Made by a program: the position numbers and the translations under genes. A DNA stretch of 64,000 bases from positions 9,858,001 through 9,922,000 of the forward strand of contig NC_060023.1 in the NCBI RefSeq assembly GCF_021134715.1, given 5' to 3'. The stretch is from Daphnia pulex. Taxonomy: Eukaryota; Arthropoda; Branchiopoda; Diplostraca; Daphniidae. The notes under the pieces were generated by a model, which saw nothing but the letters and a program-made list of their open reading frames with translations, ran no database searches and had not been told where the DNA came from. This document shows, in pieces, positions 43,877 to 56,508 of the stretch; position 1 is the stretch's first letter, and each line of letters opens with the position of its first letter.

Positions 43877-44668
43877 CTATTTCTTCACTTTGAGGGATCC
43901 ACATTTGAATTGTTCGCATTTTTCCGCTTTAGCGAAGATGTTGAAGGAGTCTTTGAGTTTGTCTGGAACGTATTCCTCCACAGCTTTGGTTACCGTACGA
44001 GTTGAGTCGGAAAAGGAGCGGGACAAGGATCCGACTTCACAGAGGAGACGCTGGATGCATTCCTGCGAATTCAATGCGGCGTAGACGACCTGGGTCAACC
44101 GCTCGACTTGGGCGACGCTCATCGATGGAAGAGCCGAGGAAGTGGCCGGAATGTTCTTCTTGGTCTCCGTTTGACGACGGTAGCGGTTGTTGTTGCCTTG
44201 ATGAGGTCTGTTGGAGTTGTTGTCGTCATTGTTGTAGTTGTCATCTTGATACTCATTTCCATAGCCGCTTTCATCGTAGTAAGCAGTCTCGTTGTATGCA
44301 TTGGTTGTTGTTGCTGCTCCACCAAGGGGAAGTAGTGGTTTGTTTCCGCCGCCACCTCCACCCCCGCCGCCTGCCACAACAACAACTATCACGATGATGG
44401 GAATCAAAATGGGGAGCACGACGATCAGTGGCAGCGCCAAGAATTTGGTGATTATACCACCACCACCTCCACCACCTCCTCCGGCGGAAACATCATCGAC
44501 TAAAGGAGCCAACTGCATCGGGGCAGATTCATAATTGTTGTACGGGGCATCGTAAGACGGAGGTGCGTAAGCTGGGGCTGCATAAGGCATCGGAGGACTG
44601 TAAGCCATAGGAGGACTATAAGGCATCGGAGGACTATAAGGCATAGGGGCCATTGCCATTGAAGCCAT
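43877..44668 (-). CDS. P1: polyGly-flanked membrane-segment protein with four-Cys C-terminal domain
   Basis: 263 residues, family not recognised. Residues 1-35 are repeats of the type MPYSPP/MAYSPP. Gly9 lies at 63-71, a 24-residue aliphatic segment at about 76-99 (ALPLIVVLPILIPIIVIVVVV), then Gly9 again. An Asn/Tyr/Asp-rich linker follows to about 160. RYRR at 162-165, followed by Gln, resembles a furin-type cleavage site. The C-terminal 90 residues hold Cys204, 210, 251 and 256 (spacings C-x5-C and C-x4-C), probably two disulphides. No N-terminal signal peptide is visible, so topology would depend on the internal hydrophobic segment. The ATG immediately follows a 3' splice site (TTTTTAACAG|ATGGC), and the upstream exon (ending at 44,766, GTAAGA donor) has no ATG. 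If processed, the Cys domain would be released or exposed outside the cell; that is inference. Confidence 0.8.
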   Translation of the reverse strand: MASMAMAPMPYSPPMPYSPPMAYSPPMPYAAPAYAPPSYDAPYNNYESAPMQLAPLVDDVSAGGGGGGGGGIITKFLALPLIVVLPILIPIIVIVVVVAGGGGGGGGGNKPLLPLGGAATTTNAYNETAYYDESGYGNEYQDDNYNNDDNNSNRPHQGNNNRYRRQTETKKNIPATSSALPSMSVAQVERLTQVVYAALNSQECIQRLLCEVGSLSRSFSDSTRTVTKAVEEYVPDKLKDSFNIFAKAEKCEQFKCGSLKVKK

Positions 44669-44765
44669 CTGTTAAAAACGGAAGAAAGATTTAAGATGAT
44701 TTCTTTAGTTAAAAAAAATAAAAAAATAAAATAATGAAATAAAATGTTACTGAATAATATCTTAC

Positions 44766-44861
44766 GATAGAATTTGGATGCTGAAAAAGTTGATGACTTT
44801 GCAGGAGAAGATCAACTGATGAAGTGGGATGCCGTTGGACTGTTCACCGTGGTCTTAAATA
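44766..44861 (-). promoter_or_regulatory. P1 promoter and untranslated first exon
   Basis: On the minus strand a TATTTAAG box at 44,861-44,854 precedes an ATG-free exon ending at 44,766 with donor GTAAGA. A TCAGT initiator-like motif lies downstream of the box. The intron 44,765-44,669 runs into the P1 start codon. The layout repeats in the three other paralogues. Confidence 0.55.
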
Positions 44862-46145
44862 GTGTCAGTAAAAACTGAAGTACGCGCTAAACAACCTTCG
44901 TTACGTCATTAGCATTAACGATTACCTTGGGATTTGGGAAGGTGCTATTAATTGAAGAAGGGTCATAGATGAAAAACTCTTATCAAAATATCTCCTTAGT
45001 TCTTACCTTGGATTTTCTTTTTCTCAAAATTAATTGAGAAATCATTCAAAAAAGATTATCCCTTGCGTTATTACAAAGAACGGTTGAATACTATTCTCTT
45101 AGTGATGGCGAAAAATGTTTGTTGTTTATTAATATTTCAATTTGATCGCCTGTACCTGTACTTATTCGCGGAATCCAATGAGCAGCAATTAATTCCCTAA
45201 TTTAGTTTTCCAGTCAATTACTTCGCCACAATTCCGTGCGTTGCGAGAACCTTTGCGCAAAAGCTGTATCGTTATTGAATTGTGTAAGCAAATCTATTTT
45301 ACTCCGTTGTTTCACTTAGCAAGCGTGATGAATGATGCAACTTAATTCTGCCGCGTAACACAATTGCGGATGTATAGCTGGATGAAGTTTCAGGCTATAC
45401 ATGATTGGTGCATATCATATGGATTAATTGTTTGATTTACTTGTCTGGTTCAAAACGTTAAAGGTCATTTTTTTTCAGTTACACTGATTCGCTGAACCTC
45501 TAGGATCTTGAAGAGGTCACTATTAGTTCAATTAAATGAGTTCCAATTTCCCATGCAACATCATGGCATGCGTCCGATTAATTTCATCGTTCTTTTCGTT
45601 GCGACTTGAACAACCACTTTTGCTGATTCGATCTGACATATTACGTGACACTTTGGGGAGTTATACGCAACAGCAGTGTACCACTATAAACAGGACCGCT
45701 TTTAATCAGTAATACGCTGTAACAACGCGGAGACGAGAGTAATATCGCTTATCGAGTTCAGATGAGTTCTGCCTGGATGCCTCTGCAGGAGGATTAAATT
45801 TCATCTTTTTATTAATTTCGGCCGAGAATATTAGCATCATTTTTTGAATCATCAAAACTGTTCGTTTATTGAGAATTCATTATTAGAAGAATTTTAAACG
45901 TAAAGATTAAGTTATATATGAATAATTTCAAAATAAAACTAGAGACCATTTCAATTCTATCCTGGTTGTATTATTACATTTAAATGGTTCAAAAATATCA
46001 CGTACAGTATACAAATGGTATATACAAGTCACACTGTTAAAAATTTGAATATGTCAAGTGTTTCGTCTCTATTTTAAATAAGAAAAAGTTAAATATGAAA
46101 AGTTCAAATAATAAAAAGGGGAGAGAATACAGCAACCACCAGTTA
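44862..46145. other. P1-relic intergenic sequence
   Basis: AT-rich sequence with no supported gene. The part from about 46,020 resembles the 3' flanks of the paralogues (AAATAAGAAAAAGTTAAAT type sequence), so it belongs with the relic to its right. Confidence 0.5.
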
Positions 46146-46239
46146 GTTTTTCATTTTGAGGGATCCACATTTATACTGCTCACATTTACTGCTTTAGCGA
46201 AGACGTTGAAGGAGTCTTTGAGTTTGTCTGGAACGTATG
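46146..46239 (-). pseudogene. 3' relic of a fifth P-family gene
   Basis: About 94 nt match the last 30 or so codons of P2 (from the VPDKLKDSFNVFAKA region to the stop), followed by paralogue-like 3' flank. A one-base deletion after the AKA codons (GCAGTAAATG against GCGGAAAAATG) shifts the frame, and upstream of 46,239 the similarity ends abruptly. It is therefore a truncated dead copy between P1 and P2, showing the array once had at least five members or a failed duplication. Confidence 0.8.
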
Positions 46240-46839
46240 AATGATCCTCATCTGTTCCGTCTGCAGGAGCTATATAGGATGTAAGATTCTTTAGATTATC
46301 TTTTCAATGAGCTATCTATTACATACTACATCTAACCACATTTATAGACATGAAATGTGATCTGATTCTTCATTGGAGAACTCTCTTCGATCCTTGACCC
46401 TCGTTTCATAATTTGCCTTTACCTTCTAACGCTCATTTGCTTAATGTGCACTTCACCCCCGAAACTAGAATTCTGTACTTTCATCATCATCTTTCACGAT
46501 TGGAAATAAATGACGCGGCAAAATTCCTTAAAATAATCATTTGAAAAATTGGACTTGTTTGTAAAAGTGAAAGTCTAATAATATAGCCAATATTCTGTTT
46601 GGATGTTACAAAAGTCATAATAGAATAAAACGTCGGAAAGCACTTTCATGCAAGATTATCGGCAAAATGTATTTAATACATAGGCTACAGAAGATCCATG
46701 ACCCACATGCGCGTAATTGTAAAAAAGCATTTCATTTGTTTCGTGAAAAATTGTCAAAATGATAAAGGTACAAGTCTCACCACTATTTTAAGTTAGAAAA
46801 CGTTACATAAGAAAAATGACATATAGAAAATAGACAAAA

Positions 46840-47616
46840 TTATTTCTTCGCTTTGAGGGATCCACATTTATACTGCTCACATTTTTCCGCTTTAGCGAAG
46901 ACGTTGAAGGAGTCTTTGAGCTTTTCTGGAACGTATTCCTCCACAGCTTTGGTTACCGTACGAGTTGAGTCGGAGAAAGAGCGGGACAAGGATCCGACTT
47001 CACAGAGAAGACGCTGGATGCATTCCTGCGAATTCAATGCGGCGTAGACGACCTGGGTCAACCGCTCGACTTGGGCGACGCTCATCGATGGAAGAGCGGA
47101 GGAAGTGGCCGGAATGTTCTTGTTCTTCTCCGTTTGACGACGGTGGCGGTTGTTGTAGCCTTGATGAGGTCTGTTGTCGTTGTAATTGTTGTTGTTGTCT
47201 TGATAGTCGTTCCCATAGCTGTTGTCGTCGTAATAAGGAGTCGACTCGTAATTTTCATTTTTCCCTGGTACTGCTGCCGCGGAACCAAGCGCTGGATTTT
47301 TATTACCTCCACCTCCACCGCCTCCGCCGCCTGCCACAACAACAACTATCACGATGATGGGAATCAAAATGGGGAGCACGACGATCAGTGGCAGCGCCAA
47401 GAATTTGGTGACCATACCACCACCACCTCCACCACCTCCTCCGGCGGAAGTATCTTCAAGAGCGCCCGGTACGACCAACGGAGCCAACGGGATCGGAGCG
47501 GATTGAGAATCTCCGTACGTGGATTGGGCAGCGTAAGGCGGAAGTGCGTAGGATGGTGGTGGTGGGACTGCGTAGGGCATCGAGGGACTGTAAGGCATCG
47601 GGGCGTATGCAGCCAT
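46840..47616 (-). CDS. P2: polyGly-flanked membrane-segment protein with four-Cys C-terminal domain
   Basis: 258 residues, paralogue of P1. The N terminus is Pro/Tyr/Ala-rich, then SAPIPLAPLVVPGALED, which P3 and P4 share but P1 lacks. Gly9 at 59-67, the same aliphatic segment at about 71-95, Gly9 at 96-104, then an Asn-rich linker. RHRR at 157-160, then Gln. Conserved Cys 199, 205, 246 and 251. The nucleotide sequence of the membrane segment and C-terminal half is almost identical to P1 even at third codon positions, while the N-terminal region differs. The start codon directly follows TTTCAACAG; an ATG-free upstream exon ends at 47,718. A long opposite-strand frame over this gene is a by-product of its repetitive codons. 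Confidence 0.8.
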   Translation of the reverse strand: MAAYAPMPYSPSMPYAVPPPPSYALPPYAAQSTYGDSQSAPIPLAPLVVPGALEDTSAGGGGGGGGGMVTKFLALPLIVVLPILIPIIVIVVVVAGGGGGGGGGNKNPALGSAAAVPGKNENYESTPYYDDNSYGNDYQDNNNNYNDNRPHQGYNNRHRRQTEKNKNIPATSSALPSMSVAQVERLTQVVYAALNSQECIQRLLCEVGSLSRSFSDSTRTVTKAVEEYVPEKLKDSFNVFAKAEKCEQYKCGSLKAKK

Positions 47617-47717
47617 CTGTTGAAACGAGAAAAAGGAAATACAGCAAGATTATTTTGGACAACAGTAATAAAAACAGTTCAAAAAAGCAAAGAAATTGAC
47701 ATTCTATTTGATATTAC

Positions 47718-47815
47718 GATTGGGTTAGTTGTTGAAGTTGAAAAGCTAACGTCTTTGCCGGAGAAAGTGCGTTGGAAAACTGTGGTGTCAACTGAACTGT
47801 TGCTCGGATCTTATA
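47718..47815 (-). promoter_or_regulatory. P2 promoter and untranslated first exon
   Basis: TATAAGA box at 47,815-47,809 on the minus strand, TTCAGTT initiator-like motif about 22 nt on, ATG-free exon ending at 47,718, donor GTAATA, intron 47,717-47,617. Confidence 0.6.
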
Positions 47816-48450
47816 AGGGCCAAGCTGTTCATTTGCTGAAGGTTTACTGCTTTGGAATTTTAATTATTATCATTAATTAATCGTCATTAATTTTCTGGCT
47901 GTACAACATGTCCTTGCATGGTGGGATTTTGTTTAATTACCGAAGGGTGATTTAAAGACTGTAAATGATATTTTTACTTAATTACCCATTAGCTTTTTTT
48001 TCTCAAAATATATAGTTAATAACAGGAAATCCTTCACCAAGTTTGAAGCATATTCAGTTAATTTGCGGGATTTGGTCTTAAAGTAATTGATGAGACGGAC
48101 AATTTGATACTATAATAATCCCGATCCGTTCAACGGATGTCGAGCGCGGGTGTTATTACTGTTTAGACAACCGCATGTGATTTTGTGCGGTTTTAATTTA
48201 GGGGGCTCGATATTTAATTGTATATCGATATCTTAAGTATTGCTAATTAGTTAGAAGTTAGTGTCGTCTGCATTATTTTTCGTTGCTTCGAAAGAGAGAC
48301 CGATACAAGTAAACAAGTTTAAGATTATAAAGAAAACGGAACGATCACTTAATTAGAAACATTTATGTGGCTGACTGGCTGCACGAAAAATAGCAGAACA
48401 AATAAAATAACAAAGTGTGATCGTCGTGTGTATGGTGTTTCGGTCTGTAT
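47816..48450. other. AT-rich spacer
   Basis: No gene or recognisable repeat seen; upstream DNA of P2 before repeat R1 begins. Confidence 0.5.
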
Positions 48451-49468
48451 GCTGTTTAGCAGGTAAATACAACTAAAAGAAAACAAATGTAATGATTGTG
48501 GGAGCTATAGAAGAGTTAAACCTGTTCCAAATTTGTGAAATGTTAGTTCAGGACTGACTAGCATTTACCATGTGATTGCCCTGTCGATGCATGGCAGTTT
48601 TTTTTGCACCATTGGTTTGCATTAGGTAACCTTCTCCTTTGTGCAAATTTGAGGACTGAGCCAGCCATCATAACAAATAGTAACGACAATATCTATGCCA
48701 AGTTTTTATGGTACTGATATTATGGACCTGTCAGCAATTTTTCTCAGTATCATCACTTGGGTCATGATTTTCGTTACTTTTCATCATGAACCTGTGAACA
48801 GAAATTCTGCTAGATATTTTTAGTAATGCATGACTTTCGTGAATGCAGTGTATTACATGTAAACTTTCAATTATCCTGTTTATTAACAATAAGAGTTTAC
48901 CCACTGTCTCATTTCAACTTTTCCTTACTTGTTGTGTCTGTCTAAATATTTTTCGTAACCCATTTTTTTATTTTTCCATTTAGATAAACAGCACCACTCT
49001 GGACTGGATAAACTACCGATGTCGGTCGAGTTACGTAGCTCTAGTTCTCCTTCCTTTATAAATGTCCTCGTGTACACCCATGTGAGTGTGGGTGTGTTCA
49101 CGAGGACGCCCTTTTTCCTATCCCGCCTAGTGGATTCTGCGGATGGATGAAGAACTTGTGGATGGATCATGGATGCCTGGCTGTATTTCCCATACTTAAA
49201 GGTAGGACAAATTCATCTCTATTCTTCCTTTTTACTATTAGGTGGCGTTGATTGGAAATCATTACGTAGTCACGGAGTATGTTTATTCCTGAGCTAGACA
49301 GTCGACTGGGACTGTTTTCTCTTGCCGTTTTTTTGTTTACTCAGTCAGGGTTTTTTAAATAACTCAATTGTAGAACGACTGCAGATCAGGCTTGTTTTGT
49401 TTTTTACCTCACAACTTTTTCTGTGGGTACACAATCGAATTCTAAAATATTTTAACTTTAAACACTTA
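48451..49468 (+). repeat. 1-kb dispersed repeat R1, second copy
   Basis: Same-orientation copy of 34,296-35,290, located between P2's promoter side and P3's 3' end. Shared pieces include TGATTGTGGGAGCTA, GACTAGCATTTACC, ATATTTTTCGTAACCCATTT, the TTTAG|ATAAACAGCA acceptor-like site, CTGGCTGTATTTCCCA, AAAG|GTAGGACA and AACGACTGCAGATCAGGC. The central hairpin is better paired than in the other copy. Upstream it carries GCACCATTGGTTTGCATT, an insertion relative to the first copy. Confidence 0.75.
49064..49107. other. Long hairpin in R1
   Basis: Arms 49,064-49,080 and 49,089-49,107: GTCCTCGTG pairs with CACGAGGAC and ACACCCA with TGGGTGT, leaving a small internal bulge and an 8-nt loop. Strong potential stem in DNA or RNA. 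Confidence 0.75.
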
Positions 49469-49743
49469 CACTAGCGTACAGCTAGACAATTTTATGACCA
49501 AGTGGGACCTGTCACCACATCCGCACCACCTCGAACAAAAAAACGGTGCAAAGCACTTTCGTCACGAAAGATGTATTTAAGAAAAATAAGAGATACAGGA
49601 GTCGTCGTTGTACACATCAGCATTTTACCTTTTTCGTAAAACAGTGTCAATCATTATAAATTAAATTATTTATCAAGTCTCGTCAAAATTTGAGTAAGAA
49701 AGAGTTAAATATAAAAAAAAGGCAAAAGTAAATAAATGTGCAA

Positions 49744-50532
49744 TTAGTTCTTGACTTTGAGGGATCCACATTTATACTGGTCGCATTTTTCTGCTTTAGC
49801 AAAGATGTTGTAAGAATCTTTGAGCTTCTCTGGAACGTATTCCTCCACAGCTTTGGTAACCGTACGAGTTGAGTCGGAGAAGGAACGGGACAGGGATCCG
49901 ACTTCACAGAGAAGACGCTGGATGCATTCCTGCGAATTCAATGCGGCGTAGACGACCTGGGTCAACCGCTCGACTTGGGCGACGCTCATCGATGGAAGAG
50001 CCGAGGAAGCAGCCGGAATGTTCTTGCTCTTCTCCGCTTGACGACGGTGGCGGTTGTTGTTGCCTTGATGAGGTCTGTTGGAGTTGTAATTGTTGTTGTT
50101 GTCTTGATAGTCGTTCCCATAGCTGTTGTCGTCGTAGTAAGGAGTTGACTCGTAATTTTCATTTTTCCCTGGTACCACCGGAAGACCAAGCGCTGGATTT
50201 TTATTACCTCCACCTCCACCGCCTCCGCCGCCTGCCACAACAACAACTATCACGATGATGGGAATCAAAATGGGGAGCACGACGATCAGTGGCAGCGCCA
50301 AGAATTTGGTGACCATACCACCACCCCCTCCGCCACCTCCTCCGGCGGAAGCATCTTCAAGAGCGCCCGGTACGACCAACGGAGCCAACGGGATCGGAGC
50401 GGATTGAGAATCTCCGTACGCGGATTGGGCAGCGTAAGGCGAAGGTGCGTAGGATGGTGGTGGGGCTGCATAAGGCAACGGTTGGCTGTAAGGCATCGGG
50501 GAACTGTAAGGCATCGGGGCGAATGCAGCCAT
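49744..50532 (-). CDS. P3: polyGly-flanked membrane-segment protein with four-Cys C-terminal domain
   Basis: 262 residues, closest to P2. N-terminal APMPYSSPMPYSQPLPYAAP repeats, Gly9 at 64-72, aliphatic segment about 76-100, Gly9 at 101-109, linker NENYESTPYYDDNSYGNDYQ as in P2, RHRR at 161-164 then Gln. Cys 203, 209, 250 and 255. The ATG abuts a 3' splice site (GAACACCAG|ATGGC). An untranslated exon ends at 50,647 with a GTAAGT donor. The promoter is an exact duplicate of the P4 promoter. No function can be assigned; a secreted or membrane-tethered extracellular role is the simplest inference from the processing-like site and paired cysteines. Confidence 0.8.
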   Translation of the reverse strand: MAAFAPMPYSSPMPYSQPLPYAAPPPSYAPSPYAAQSAYGDSQSAPIPLAPLVVPGALEDASAGGGGGGGGGMVTKFLALPLIVVLPILIPIIVIVVVVAGGGGGGGGGNKNPALGLPVVPGKNENYESTPYYDDNSYGNDYQDNNNNYNSNRPHQGNNNRHRRQAEKSKNIPAASSALPSMSVAQVERLTQVVYAALNSQECIQRLLCEVGSLSRSFSDSTRTVTKAVEEYVPEKLKDSYNIFAKAEKCDQYKCGSLKVKN

Positions 50533-50646
50533 CTGGTGTTCAGAACATAATAAAATAATATCGGAACCTAGAAACTAGTTCAATTTCAACACTCTTATGG
50601 GAAATGTTTTGAACTTCCATTAATATATTAAAGAGGAATCACTTAC

Positions 50647-50833
50647 GACTTATCTGCTGGATGACAATTCTGTTGAACGTCTTTGCCAGAACTGCTGTGC
50701 CATTCGCTTCATTTGCCGGGTCTTATAAATGGTTGATAGGTTAGCATCTACATTACGACACGTGTGGTAGGCGGAGGCTAGCAACCGCAACCCATGTCCT
50801 TGTCTTTTCTCAAAACTCTCCAAATTAATAACA
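50647..50833 (-). promoter_or_regulatory. P3 promoter (137-bp exact duplicate of P4 promoter) and first exon
   Basis: 50,697-50,833 is identical, base for base, to 53,292-53,428. It holds a TATAAGA box (50,727-50,721 on the minus strand) and a CACGTG E-box about 36 nt farther upstream. A GCAGTT initiator-like motif lies about 34 nt downstream of the TATA box, just outside the identical part. The ATG-free exon ends at 50,647 (donor GTAAGT) and the intron is 50,646-50,533. Confidence 0.7.
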
Positions 50834-51149
50834 CCAAGTACAAATAGTTAAATAATTGTTTGGAAGTCAATTCTTCTTTGAATCCATTTGCGTTTGTACG
50901 TGCACGTAGAGTTGATAGATTTCAATTGAACAGCCTCAATGGAAAACTTGAATTTGACTAATCAGCTGATAATCTTCTTACAGCAAAATGCTTGTGTCAG
51001 CTGTATTTGAGCTGTAGTGAAGATAATTAGCTACTCAGATAATAATTTTCAAATTACTTAAAGGTATCACCATTTCCACACACTGCCAGAGTTGATCAGT
51101 TGATCATGATCCAGTTTGAACAGCTGTTAAAACTTTTAATCCAACTTCG
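50834..51149. other. P3 upstream sequence
   Basis: Diverged homologue of 53,429-53,745. Shared fragments include TTCAATTGAACA, GACTAAT-AGCTGATAATCTTCTT and GCAAAATGCTTG. No gene. Confidence 0.6.
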
Positions 51150-51625
51150 TTGCGTAAGTGAACCCAAAAACTGGAAATGAATTACCGGCTGAATCGTCGG
51201 TCTTTTGCTGTTGACGGGAAGATGAAGGGAGTGGTAGGTGGGGTTGCAAGATTACACAGAGGGCCTGTCATCTCCGTCAGTAGCAACCGACAATGCGATG
51301 AAAATGGGACGGACTCTTACTTTTCGTCCATTCTTGAGAGTTAAGACGCTTCTTTCCTCTTATTATTTGATGGGGATCATTTTTGTTTAGCTTTCGTATG
51401 GAAAAAAGAAATTGTGTCTATGTTTCAAGTTGCAAGCACCGCTCGATGCGCCAAATGAAATGAAAACTGAGACTTGCCTCTTCACGGCTGATCGTCATAG
51501 CAACGAGCAATGATGTGTTTTTCTTTTTTCAATGTCCGAGAAGGTGACGAGTGTATAAGTGGGAGCAAAGGCGATTGGCTCGAACCTGCTTTAAAACTTG
51601 TTCCTTATCTTTTAATTTGACAGCC
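51150..51625 (+). repeat. Upstream duplicated block (P3 copy)
   Basis: Highly similar to 54,030-54,485 and, more distantly and inverted, to 24.9-25.5 kb. Best-conserved parts are GTCGGTCTTTTGCTGTTGAC, GGGCCTGTCATCTCCGTCAG and GGCTGATCGTCATAGCAACG, the last resembling an RFX X-box half site. It marks the distal end of the unit duplicated together with P3/P4. Confidence 0.8.
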
Positions 51626-51644
51626 GCAAGATCCGCACATCAAA

Positions 51645-51743
51645 ATGGCACGTTTCATCATTGGTTATGCTGGCAATAGCATCGTCATTTGGTTGTTTTC
51701 CATCATGGTCCTCTGTTGCTTCCGCAAGTATACTGGGAACTAG
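51645..51743 (+). CDS. Possible 32-residue hydrophobic micropeptide
   Basis: An ATG in a good context (AAAATGG) opens 32 codons ending in TAG. The peptide begins MARFIIGYAGNS, has one hydrophobic stretch (IVIWLFSIMVLCC) and a short basic tail. A TATAAG motif lies about 90 nt upstream (near 51,553) and is absent from the homologous block at 54.4 kb. A splice-acceptor-like TTTGACAG ends at 51,623. Single-membrane micropeptides exist in arthropods, but a frame this short can arise by chance and the two homologous blocks do not preserve it. Confidence 0.2.
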   Translation: MARFIIGYAGNSIVIWLFSIMVLCCFRKYTGN

Positions 51744-52319
51744 AAATCTTTAGATGGTCATTTTCATGAACTACGGTATCTAAACCAATTTTATGGATAC
51801 GATAAATATCCTGACTTGGATTCTCGATCAGAAGATCGCGAATGAATCCCTTGTCGTTAATCGATCTCCGTTTCATTTGCCTTTAGATTACTAATGCTCT
51901 TTTAATTTGCCTAATATGCGGCCTTGACTGTAACTAAAATTCTGTACGTTTCAATCTTTCAAGATTTGAAACGAATAACACATGAATAGTTCCTTGAATA
52001 CCAATAAAGAGATTGGACATAAGTAAAAATACTAATGACTTAATGAGCAAGTCGGAGCAAGGTCAGTAGCCTACATTCGGTAACAGATTGAATGATCCAA
52101 ACGTTATCATACAATAATAAATTGGTGCAAAACAAATTCGTGACAGATGTATTTAAGAAAACAAAAGGATATACAAGAATGTCGTTGTACAATAGCATTT
52201 TACGTTTTCGTAAAAAAGTATCAATTAAATAATTAATATAAATTAAAAGTATCAAGTCTCGTCACTATTTTAAATTGGAAAAAGTAATAGACGAAAAATG
52301 CACAGAAAATAGCTAGCAA
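51744..52319. other. P4 3' flank
   Basis: 51,830-51,990 resembles 46,370-46,540 (3' side of the P2 unit), and 52,120-52,260 resembles the 3' flanks of P2 and P3 (GATGTATTTAAGAAAA, CAAGTCTCGTCA). This shows that duplication units include several hundred bases of 3' flank. No gene. Confidence 0.6.
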
Positions 52320-53111
52320 TTAGTTCTCCACTTTGAGAGATCCACATTTAAACTGTTCACATTTTTCGGCTTTAGCGAAGAGGTTGAAGGAGTCTTTGAG
52401 CTTCTCTGGAACGTATTCCTCCACAGCTTTGGTAACCGTTCGAGTTGTGTCGGAAAATGAGCGGGACAAGGATCCGACTTCACAGAGAAGACGCTGGATG
52501 CATTCCTGCGAATTCAACGCGGCGTAGACGACCTGGGTCAACCGCTCGACTCGGGCGACGCTCATCGATGGAAGAGCGGAGGAAGAAGACAAATTGTACT
52601 TGTTCTTTTCCGCTTGACGACGCTTGCGATACTGGTTGTCTTGATTGGGTTTGTTGTCGTTGTAATTGTTGTTGTTGTCGTAGTTGTTATCTTGATAGTC
52701 ATTGCCATAGCTGTTTTCATTGTAATAAGGAGTCGTCTCATCATATTCATTTTGTCCGTTTTTGCCGACATCTCCGCCGCCAACTTTTGAAACAACAGCA
52801 GCTACCACTGCGGCGACGACCGCAGCCACAACAGCGGCGACCACAGCCACAATTGGAAGCAAAATGGGGAACAAGCCAGGCAACGCGAGGAACGTGGTCT
52901 TCATGCCACCTCCTCCTCCTCCTCCTCCTCCGGCGGAAGCATCTTCAAGAGCGCCCGGTACGACCAACGGAGCCAACGGGATCGGAGCGGATTGATAATC
53001 TCCGTACGGTGAAGGGGCACCGTAAGGCGATGGTGGTGGGGCTGCATAAGGCAACGGTTGGCTGTAAGCCATCGGAGGACTGTAAGGCACCGGAGTTAAT
53101 GCAGCTGCCAT
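52320..53111 (-). CDS. P4: divergent P-family member with alanine/valine-repeat hydrophobic segment
   Basis: 263 residues. Shares the N-terminal PYSPPMAYSQPLPYAAPPP theme, the SAPIPLAPLVVPGALED stretch, Gly9 at 61-69 and the C-terminal Cys domain (Cys 204, 210, 251, 256) with P1-P3. The hydrophobic segment is different: about 73-109 ends in tandem AAVV repeats (five), and the second polyglycine run is reduced to GGG. The processing-like site is RKRR at 162-165, the best furin match of the four. Within the Cys domain it has small changes (ARVERL, SDTTRT, LKVEN at the end). The ATG follows TTTTGAACAG. Because the segment is made of a short DNA repeat, it probably arose by repeat expansion replacing the ancestral segment. 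Confidence 0.8.
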   Translation of the reverse strand: MAAALTPVPYSPPMAYSQPLPYAAPPPSPYGAPSPYGDYQSAPIPLAPLVVPGALEDASAGGGGGGGGGMKTTFLALPGLFPILLPIVAVVAAVVAAVVAAVVAAVVSKVGGGDVGKNGQNEYDETTPYYNENSYGNDYQDNNYDNNNNYNDNKPNQDNQYRKRRQAEKNKYNLSSSSALPSMSVARVERLTQVVYAALNSQECIQRLLCEVGSLSRSFSDTTRTVTKAVEEYVPEKLKDSFNLFAKAEKCEQFKCGSLKVEN

Positions 53112-53428: not shown

Positions 53429-53744
53429 TTCCGTGCAATAGTAAAATAACTGTTTGAATTCAATTCTTCTTTGAAATCCATTTGCGCTCTATGTAAAATG
53501 ATCCATTTCAATTGAACAAGCTCAATGGAAACCTTGAAATTGACTAATGAGCTGATAATCTTCTTGTAGCAAAATGCTTGCTGCGTTCAGTTGTATCCGG
53601 GTTGTAGTGTAATGATAATTAGTTGATCAATCATAATCTACACACTTCTAGAGTTGCAATGGTGATATTTGAATTGAGTTTATAATTTTTTTATTTGTTA
53701 TTTAATTTGGATATTTGATCAGTTTGAACAGCTGTTTAATCCGA

Positions 53745-54026
53745 AGGCCGAGGTACGTGTAGAAGGCCGAGGGGCGTACGCGTAGCGTAGGCCGTGTTAC
53801 GTGTAGGCCGAGGTACGTGTAGAGTAGGCCGAGTTACGTGTATGCCATGGTACGTGTAGGCCGTGGTACGTGTAGCGTAGGCCGTGTTACGTGCGTAAAT
53901 ATTAGAGAAAGCCGGCCTACGCTAATAGACACGTATCACGGCCTAACTTTTCCTGAATGAAGAACGGCCTGCCGGCCGAGGAAGAACGGCCTGCCGGCCG
54001 AAGAATAACGGCCTGCCGGCCGAGGA
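53745..54026. repeat. Two adjoining GC-rich minisatellites upstream of P4
   Basis: 53,745-53,895 is an array of about 16-nt units of the form GTAGGCCGNGNTACGT with irregular spacers. 53,915-53,945 carries the same words in inverted orientation. 53,960-54,026 holds three 22-25-nt units built on AACGGCCTGCCGGCCGA, itself largely palindromic. The array interrupts sequence that is continuous upstream of P3 (near 51,130-51,155), so it is an insertion or expansion specific to this copy. Confidence 0.85.
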
Positions 54027-54720
54027 AGTTCCGTAAGTGAACCCAACAACCGGAAATGAATTACCGTCCGACTCGTCGGTCTTTTGCTGTTGACGGGAAG
54101 ATGAAGGGAGTTGTAGGTGGGGTTGCAAGATTAGACAGAGGGCCTGTCATCTCCGTCAGTAGCAACCAACAATCCAGACTCTAACTTTTCGCTTATTCTC
54201 GAAATTTCAGTTGAGTGGCTTCTTTCCTCTTAATAAACGGGATTATTTTGGTTTGGTTTAGTGCTTATCGTATCGCAAAACAAATATTTGCCTATGTTTC
54301 AAGTTGCTTCTATTGCTCGATGCGCCGAATGAAACTGCGACTTTTTGCTCGTTCTCGGCTGATCGTCATAGCAACGCGTAATGATGTGTTTTTCGATGTC
54401 CGAGGATGTGACGAGTGTAAGCAGAGCAAAGGCGATTGGCTTGAACCTGCTTTGAAACTAACTTGTTCCTTATCTTTTAATTCCTCAAGATCTAATATAC
54501 TCGTCTGAAGCTGGGCCAGAGACGTGCAGATGATGGGGGGTGATGGAGTACTAGGATACACATGTTCGGTACACTGATCATTTCTCATTTTCGTGGTCTT
54601 TTCCTCGATTCAGGACGCTTGACAGGATCTAATCAAATTGCTTTGATGGGTTCAATTATATAGCTCTTCTGCTCTTCCCCCACGTTGACCGATCTGTTGG
54701 CCGCTTTCTTCCCCTTATCC
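54027..54720 (+). repeat. Upstream duplicated block (P4 copy)
   Basis: 54,030-54,485 matches 51,150-51,625 closely. The whole block to about 54,720 matches the minus strand of 24,690-25,530, including the TCAGGACGCTTGACAGGATC stretch at about 54,612. In the right-hand part one strand reads as protein-like with mostly synonymous differences from the 24.8-kb copy, but this copy has an in-frame stop. Confidence 0.7.
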
Positions 54721-55511: not shown

Positions 55512-56508
55512 TTAAAGGATTGTTTCGTATTTCCACTTGTTGATGCAACTGGCTAACATGCAAGTCAAAACCAGCCCCAAAATGTGAAAACCTGCCACTG
55601 CTAGACAGATGATTCCAATTAGCTTGCCAGATGAACTGATGAAAGTAACCACAGTCGTGTAACAGCCCTTGGAATCGAATAGGATATACAGATTAATTAC
55701 ATTATGCATTCGTATAATTTTTAAGCGCACTCGACTTACGACTTCATTGATCGATGAGGGGTTCTTAGTGTTGCAACTCGGGGCTTTGCAGCAGGAATTT
55801 GGAACTGGGAGTCCATAATCTTGCCAGTCTTCATAGCTTTCAACACCACAACATTTCAGCTGAAATTTTAAAATCAAATTTAAGATATCAGTACAAAAAG
55901 GTGTAAATTTATAGTTAAATGTGCTTACAGCAGTTTGCATGGTATCAACGGCATCTCTGTTGGCTTCAACATTTTTGTAGCTCTTCATGCTGTTCTTCAA
56001 ACCATTCTTGAAGCTTTCTTTGATTGCATCCTGGTAGGCAAAGGCAGCAATTCCAATGCTGATCTGGATAACAAGTACAACTCCCAAGAAAGCTGAATAC
56101 TATTGAAATCAATGTAATAGATTAGTGGTTTATTGTGTCAACAAATAATCTGTCACTGTTACTAACCAGGTAAAGAAGAATGGGATTTCCAGATAGTGTG
56201 CAATAGCAGGACATCAGTCCTACCAAAGCTATGGCAACTCCAACGGACATGAAGAAAATGGCAACATGTGAAGCAACAGGATTTGATGGGTTGACATCTA
56301 GGAATTTATGGACTTCGAATTTCATCCAAATTCCAGCAGCTAAAACAGCACATCCAAATACCTGTACAAATAAAATAAACATTATGAATATCTGAAGAAG
56401 TAAGTATCAAATCACACAAATCTAAAGTACCCAAAGTGCAAAGTCAAAGAAAACGAGTAGAATTTTCATGAACGCCAGGGTCCAACCGCTCTGAAAACGC
56501 CCCGGCAT
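55512..56508 (-). CDS. Tetraspanin
   Basis: Five coding exons on the minus strand: 56508..56431, 56361..56167, 56099..55929, 55859..55740, 55667..55512. All junctions are phase 0, introns are 67-72 nt, and the product is 239 residues. It has four membrane segments (about 13-36, 58-78, 87-112, 203-226) and a large extracellular loop with the hallmark CCG (151-153), PNSCC (168-172), Cys177 and a final GCY (189-191). That is six loop cysteines, hence three disulphides. The cytoplasmic tail is short (NKWKYETIL). From family knowledge, tetraspanins organise membrane microdomains and partner receptors. The first donor is GTACTT, weaker than the others, yet gives the expected junction (FALW|VFGCAVLAAGIW). 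Which subfamily this belongs to I cannot tell. The start codon is 844 nt from the divergent TMEM230 start. Confidence 0.9.

Follow-up and report, generated by a model that had tools for sequence, protein, structure and literature searches.

We describe a family of seven predicted proteins in Daphnia pulex, four of which are encoded in tandem in the window, the stretch of 64,000 nucleotides on contig 7 that was analysed. Our preferred reading, to which we give a probability of roughly 55%, is that they are single-pass type II membrane proproteins from which a C-terminal domain with four cysteines would be shed. Sequence comparison supports the view that the family is real and lies outside the libraries searched. 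No Pfam model reached its cut-off for any member and PDB sequences gave no match below E 0.11, in line with the initial annotation, which did not recognise the family. No relative was confirmed on viral and prokaryotic contigs. The layout is familiar from other families and the sequence family is absent from the libraries searched. In the first Daphnia pulex protein set, about 10,000 of 30,550 proteins, about a third, are given as lacking a known homologue (PMC3584848).

The family copies in the window were located as follows.

43877-44668, minus strand: P1, intact gene of 263 amino acids with a single coding exon (open frame and family alignment)
44861-44854: upstream of P1, TATTTAAG; AG stands immediately 5' of the P1 ATG
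46143-46238, minus strand: relic, the 3' end of a family copy with the C-terminal ~30 codons (blastn and alignment)
46840-47616, minus strand: P2, intact gene of 258 amino acids (open frame)
49744-50532, minus strand: P3, intact gene of 262 amino acids (open frame)
52320-53111, minus strand: P4, intact gene of 263 amino acids (open frame); its hydrophobic segment is divergent, with AVV repeats, and its second Gly tract is reduced

Four intact minus-strand paralogues and a relic had been proposed initially, and all five were recovered. The open frames encode 258-263 amino acids. The relic comprises 96 bases; aligned with P2 in 97 columns, it shows 91% identity, and a gap of one base disrupts its frame. 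Between P2 and P3 the DNA of the coding region is 90% identical; the remaining five pairs among P1-P4 share 75-81%. Frames of at least 236 amino acids were found five times in the region of 43-54 kb and in none of 200 first-order Markov copies of it, where the longest frame was 228. One of the five lies on the opposite strand over P2; this 303-codon open frame (46969-47880, plus strand), antisense to P2, is probably a side effect of the Gly/Asn-rich coding strand.

The layout described initially was found in each of P1-P4. It runs from a Pro/Tyr N terminus through Gly9, the hydrophobic segment, a second Gly9 (only GGG in P4), an Asn/Tyr/Asp linker and RxRR to a domain with C-x5-C and C-x4-C. 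In P3, the elements map to the following positions.

50721-50728, minus strand: TATA-like box, ahead of a probably noncoding first exon
50317-50343, minus strand: first Gly9 tract, residues 64-72
50233-50316, minus strand: hydrophobic, proline-broken segment, residues 73-100, the predicted signal anchor (Kyte-Doolittle 19-residue mean 3.49)
50206-50232, minus strand: second Gly9 tract, residues 101-109
50041-50052, minus strand: RHRR, furin-type site, residues 161-164
49747-50040, minus strand: C-terminal four-cysteine domain, residues 165-262 (conservation, purifying selection, four-helix model)

The Gly tracts are exactly nine residues long on both sides of the predicted anchor in three copies. 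Their codons are mixed in P1-P3 and in the copy on contig 3, whereas GGA is used in seven of nine in P4. The full-length structure model, with a mean pLDDT of only 39.1, placed a helix at residues 82-101 of P3. The C domain was modelled as four helices with modest confidence (mean pLDDT 60.7), and a PDB fold search with this low-confidence model returned no significant match.

To look beyond the window, the whole genome (133,188,837 bases, 13 contigs) was searched at the protein level. Three further members were found on other contigs: the C3 copy (70% identity, 236 amino acids, Gly7 and Gly10), the C2 copy (45%, 255 amino acids) and the C12 copy (43%, 262 amino acids). When the genome was searched again, with the C12 copy's C domain as query, the identical seven members were recovered and no eighth at E <= 10; the four members annotated initially have thus become seven. 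The C2 and C12 copies lack glycine tracts. GESGLTKLLKK stands ahead of their hydrophobic segment, and their linker is of the Thr/Pro/Gly type; the segment itself, likewise broken by proline, is retained, as are the basic site and the same four-cysteine terminal domain. The Gly-tract layout that had been taken for the family order thus holds for five members but not for these two, and the tracts are an elaboration in one branch. Since the C2 and C12 copies have the same end without the tracts, the defining core consists of the hydrophobic segment, the basic site and the four-cysteine domain.

The topology was deduced from the order of these elements. All seven members have one strong hydrophobic segment, with a best 19-residue mean of 2.84-3.49, and a Lys just upstream of it (KLLKK in the C2 and C12 copies). 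In all seven the four cysteines are C-terminal to this segment, and N-glycosylation sequons lie C-terminal to it in five members and N-terminal in none, counts that partly reflect composition. The conserved cysteine domain is preceded by RxRR, as initially annotated, in six of the seven; the exception is the C2 copy, where KRR alone, a weaker site, speaks against a furin cut. Furin acts in the lumen, and with RxRR in front of the cysteine domain the simplest reading is that the N terminus is inside and the C terminus outside, followed by release of the C domain.

According to this scheme, the internal hydrophobic segment would serve as a signal anchor, the Pro/Tyr-rich N terminus would stay in the cytosol, and the linker and the four-cysteine domain would enter the secretory lumen. 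A furin-type convertase in the Golgi would then cut at R-x-R/K-R and free a mostly helical domain of ~85-98 residues that may be closed by two disulphides. In the five members that have it, the polyglycine next to the anchor could provide flexible spacers that were gained in one branch, one side having been reduced again in P4. A surface or secreted destination is plausible from the predicted topology, and release into the epidermal extracellular matrix is a tentative guess. Of the cuticle, egg-case, immunity and adhesion roles suggested initially, none gained support from the analysis. The N terminus of P1, P2, P3 and the C3 copy (4/7) contains PPxY, which we take to be a candidate WW-domain ligand motif.

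Several features speak against a type II orientation. The positive-inside bias is small in P1-P3, with one Lys within 20 residues before the segment and one basic residue within 20 after it, and in the C2 copy the basic residues around the segment are equal, three before and three after. Moreover, three prolines lie inside the hydrophobic block of every member, which is unusual for a membrane helix. VVVVA followed by G in P1-P3 could suit signal peptidase as well, and counts against an anchor.

The start of the protein was examined at the gene level. A TATA-like box is found 153-212 nt upstream of the ATG in all seven genes. By eye, it is followed by a TCAGT-type initiator in P1, P2 and the C3 and C2 copies and by TCAGA in the C12 copy, and in these five genes a GT donor after the initiator closes a short first exon without ATG. 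The promoter stretches of P3 and P4 are nearly identical and lack a TCAGT-type initiator. Counted from the first base of the TATA box, they have in-frame ATGs at a distance of 16 and 25 bases; no signal peptide results from these ATGs, and their frame is closed by a stop after 20 codons (P3) or 15 (P4), so that the protein probably starts in exon 2. In line with the initial annotation, no N-terminal signal peptide was seen: AG stands directly 5' of the ATG in 7/7 genes, and the top 11-residue hydrophobicity starting in the first 25 residues was 0.16-1.50. TGACG occurs ahead of the TATA box in five of the seven genes (P1, P2 and the C3, C2 and C12 copies) and TGACGNA in four of six genes counted; as it was picked after the fact, this motif is a lead only.

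Selection acts on the protein. In the C domain, dN/dS was 0.05-0.32 in all 21 pairs of the seven genes, with 0.06 for the C2/C12 pair. The Gly-hydrophobic-Gly block gave 0-0.13 in the six pairs among P1, P2, P3 and the C3 copy, which indicates that this block is under selection too. The same block gave 0.36-0.49 when these four were compared with P4, and nine of the ten comparisons of the five Gly-tract genes with the C2 or C12 copy were saturated. Evolution is faster at the N terminus, with higher values: 1.34 for P2/P3 (3.2 synonymous and 11.8 nonsynonymous changes), 0.79 for P2/P4 and 0.80 for P3/P4.

The likeness of P3 and P4 extends to the flanks and the promoter (77.5%), and a second duplicated block, 51149-51617 versus 54028-54482 (77.5%), lies between and beyond these genes. 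The likeness of P2 and P3, on the other hand, ends near the gene edges and covers little more than the coding region. The pattern would fit an amplification of the window gene by tandem duplication, followed by exchange between the copies. A short frame from 51646, just past the first copy of the block, looked hydrophobic and signal-like by eye; no gene was established there.

A consistent resemblance below the threshold was seen to the arthropod DM4/DM12 domain (PF07841). DM4_12 was the top Pfam match for all seven isolated C domains (13.9-16.3 bits, E 0.017-0.091), with a best E of 0.013 when the domain ends were slightly shifted. An hhalign comparison with nine DM4_12 loci of the same genome gave a probability of 20% and a score of 23.2; the best of 200 column shuffles scored 18.3. 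On visual comparison, the succession of C-x5-C-E, Y-x-x-A, a Cys pair and SL resembles DM4/DM12, C-x5-C-E being present in 7/7 members within a four-cysteine domain of about 90 residues. It is nevertheless doubtful that the four-cysteine domain is a divergent DM4/DM12 branch on a new membrane-anchored N terminus. No DM4_12 score attained the curated cut-off of 22 bits; elsewhere in this genome the same model gave nine matches above it. With full-length queries DM4_12 was listed for one of seven members (E 0.17). The alignment comprises 18 columns around a single motif; for the second half, local shuffles reached the score in 133 of 150 cases and global shuffles in 143 of 150, and full-length global alignment failed, as 54 of 150 shuffles reached the score. 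In addition, the DM4_12 domains here are apparently split over two exons, whereas the family domain is unsplit. Their second pair is C-x6-C in eight of nine loci and C-x7-C in the ninth, always with P next; the family has neither, but C-x4-C-G-S-L in 7/7.

Two further readings were considered. It is unlikely that the proteins are secreted silk- or cuticle-like structural components, in which Gly tracts, AVV repeats and Tyr-rich stretches would assemble or cross-link extracellularly and the hydrophobic segment would be a cleaved internal signal. The Gly/Tyr/Pro composition of low complexity and the (AVV)n of P4 would suit this, as would the gene structure, a TATA promoter with a single coding exon being frequent in abundantly expressed cuticle genes. 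However, the four-cysteine domain and not the repeats is best conserved, the Gly tracts are missing in two of seven members, and a chitin-binding or cuticle Pfam domain was listed for none of the seven at E <= 10. We think it quite improbable that the shed helical domain acts as a ligand of the hormone or cytokine type, with the remainder as its membrane-held precursor. A type II anchor, a convertase site and a small helical disulphide domain form a ligand-precursor layout established for other families, and the low C2/C12 value of the C domain is in favour; against it, the PDB sequence search matched no known ligand, fold searches with the low-confidence model gave nothing significant, and hormone genes less typically show tandem amplification with a relic.

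For the preferred reading, a precedent of a type II anchor with furin shedding is C. elegans COL-99 (PMC4678570). The family resembles the MACIT collagens (XIII/XXIII/XXV) in its predicted type II anchor, its furin-type site and a conserved C-terminal part next to a weakly conserved N-terminal tail (PMC4678570). It differs in the lack of Gly-X-Y repeats, glycine occurring by eye only as pure tracts by the anchor (7/7), and in its basic site, which is distant from the membrane and adjoins the C domain. The Osiris genes (DUF1676, PF07898) are small arthropod tandem genes whose products have a hydrophobic segment with proline and a pair of cysteines, and the family is similar in these points. Unlike Osiris, no signal peptide was seen in the family; DUF1676 was listed for none of the seven members (hmmscan, E <= 10), and a genome-wide DUF1676 search was blank, controls included, and is therefore uninformative.

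A wider picture may be drawn tentatively: an undescribed crustacean family with a proline-broken type II anchor, insulated by glycine tracts in one branch, would shed a new helical four-cysteine domain; with this shed domain constant and the cytosolic tails and linkers diverging among the tandem copies, it would form an amplifying secreted-ligand or matrix system. Because it has a clear conserved core, a testable processing route and few members (seven found), the family is directly assayable. If the shed domain is a ligand or matrix component, this would give a function to a class not covered by the libraries searched.

The sequence next to the cluster was also inspected. A tetraspanin gene exon (PF00335, E 2.6e-24) adjoins it at 55512-56099 on the minus strand. 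Just beyond the cluster, at 53740-54028, lies a tandem repeat array of the GTAGGCC type; contigs C1 and C11 carry stretches related to it.
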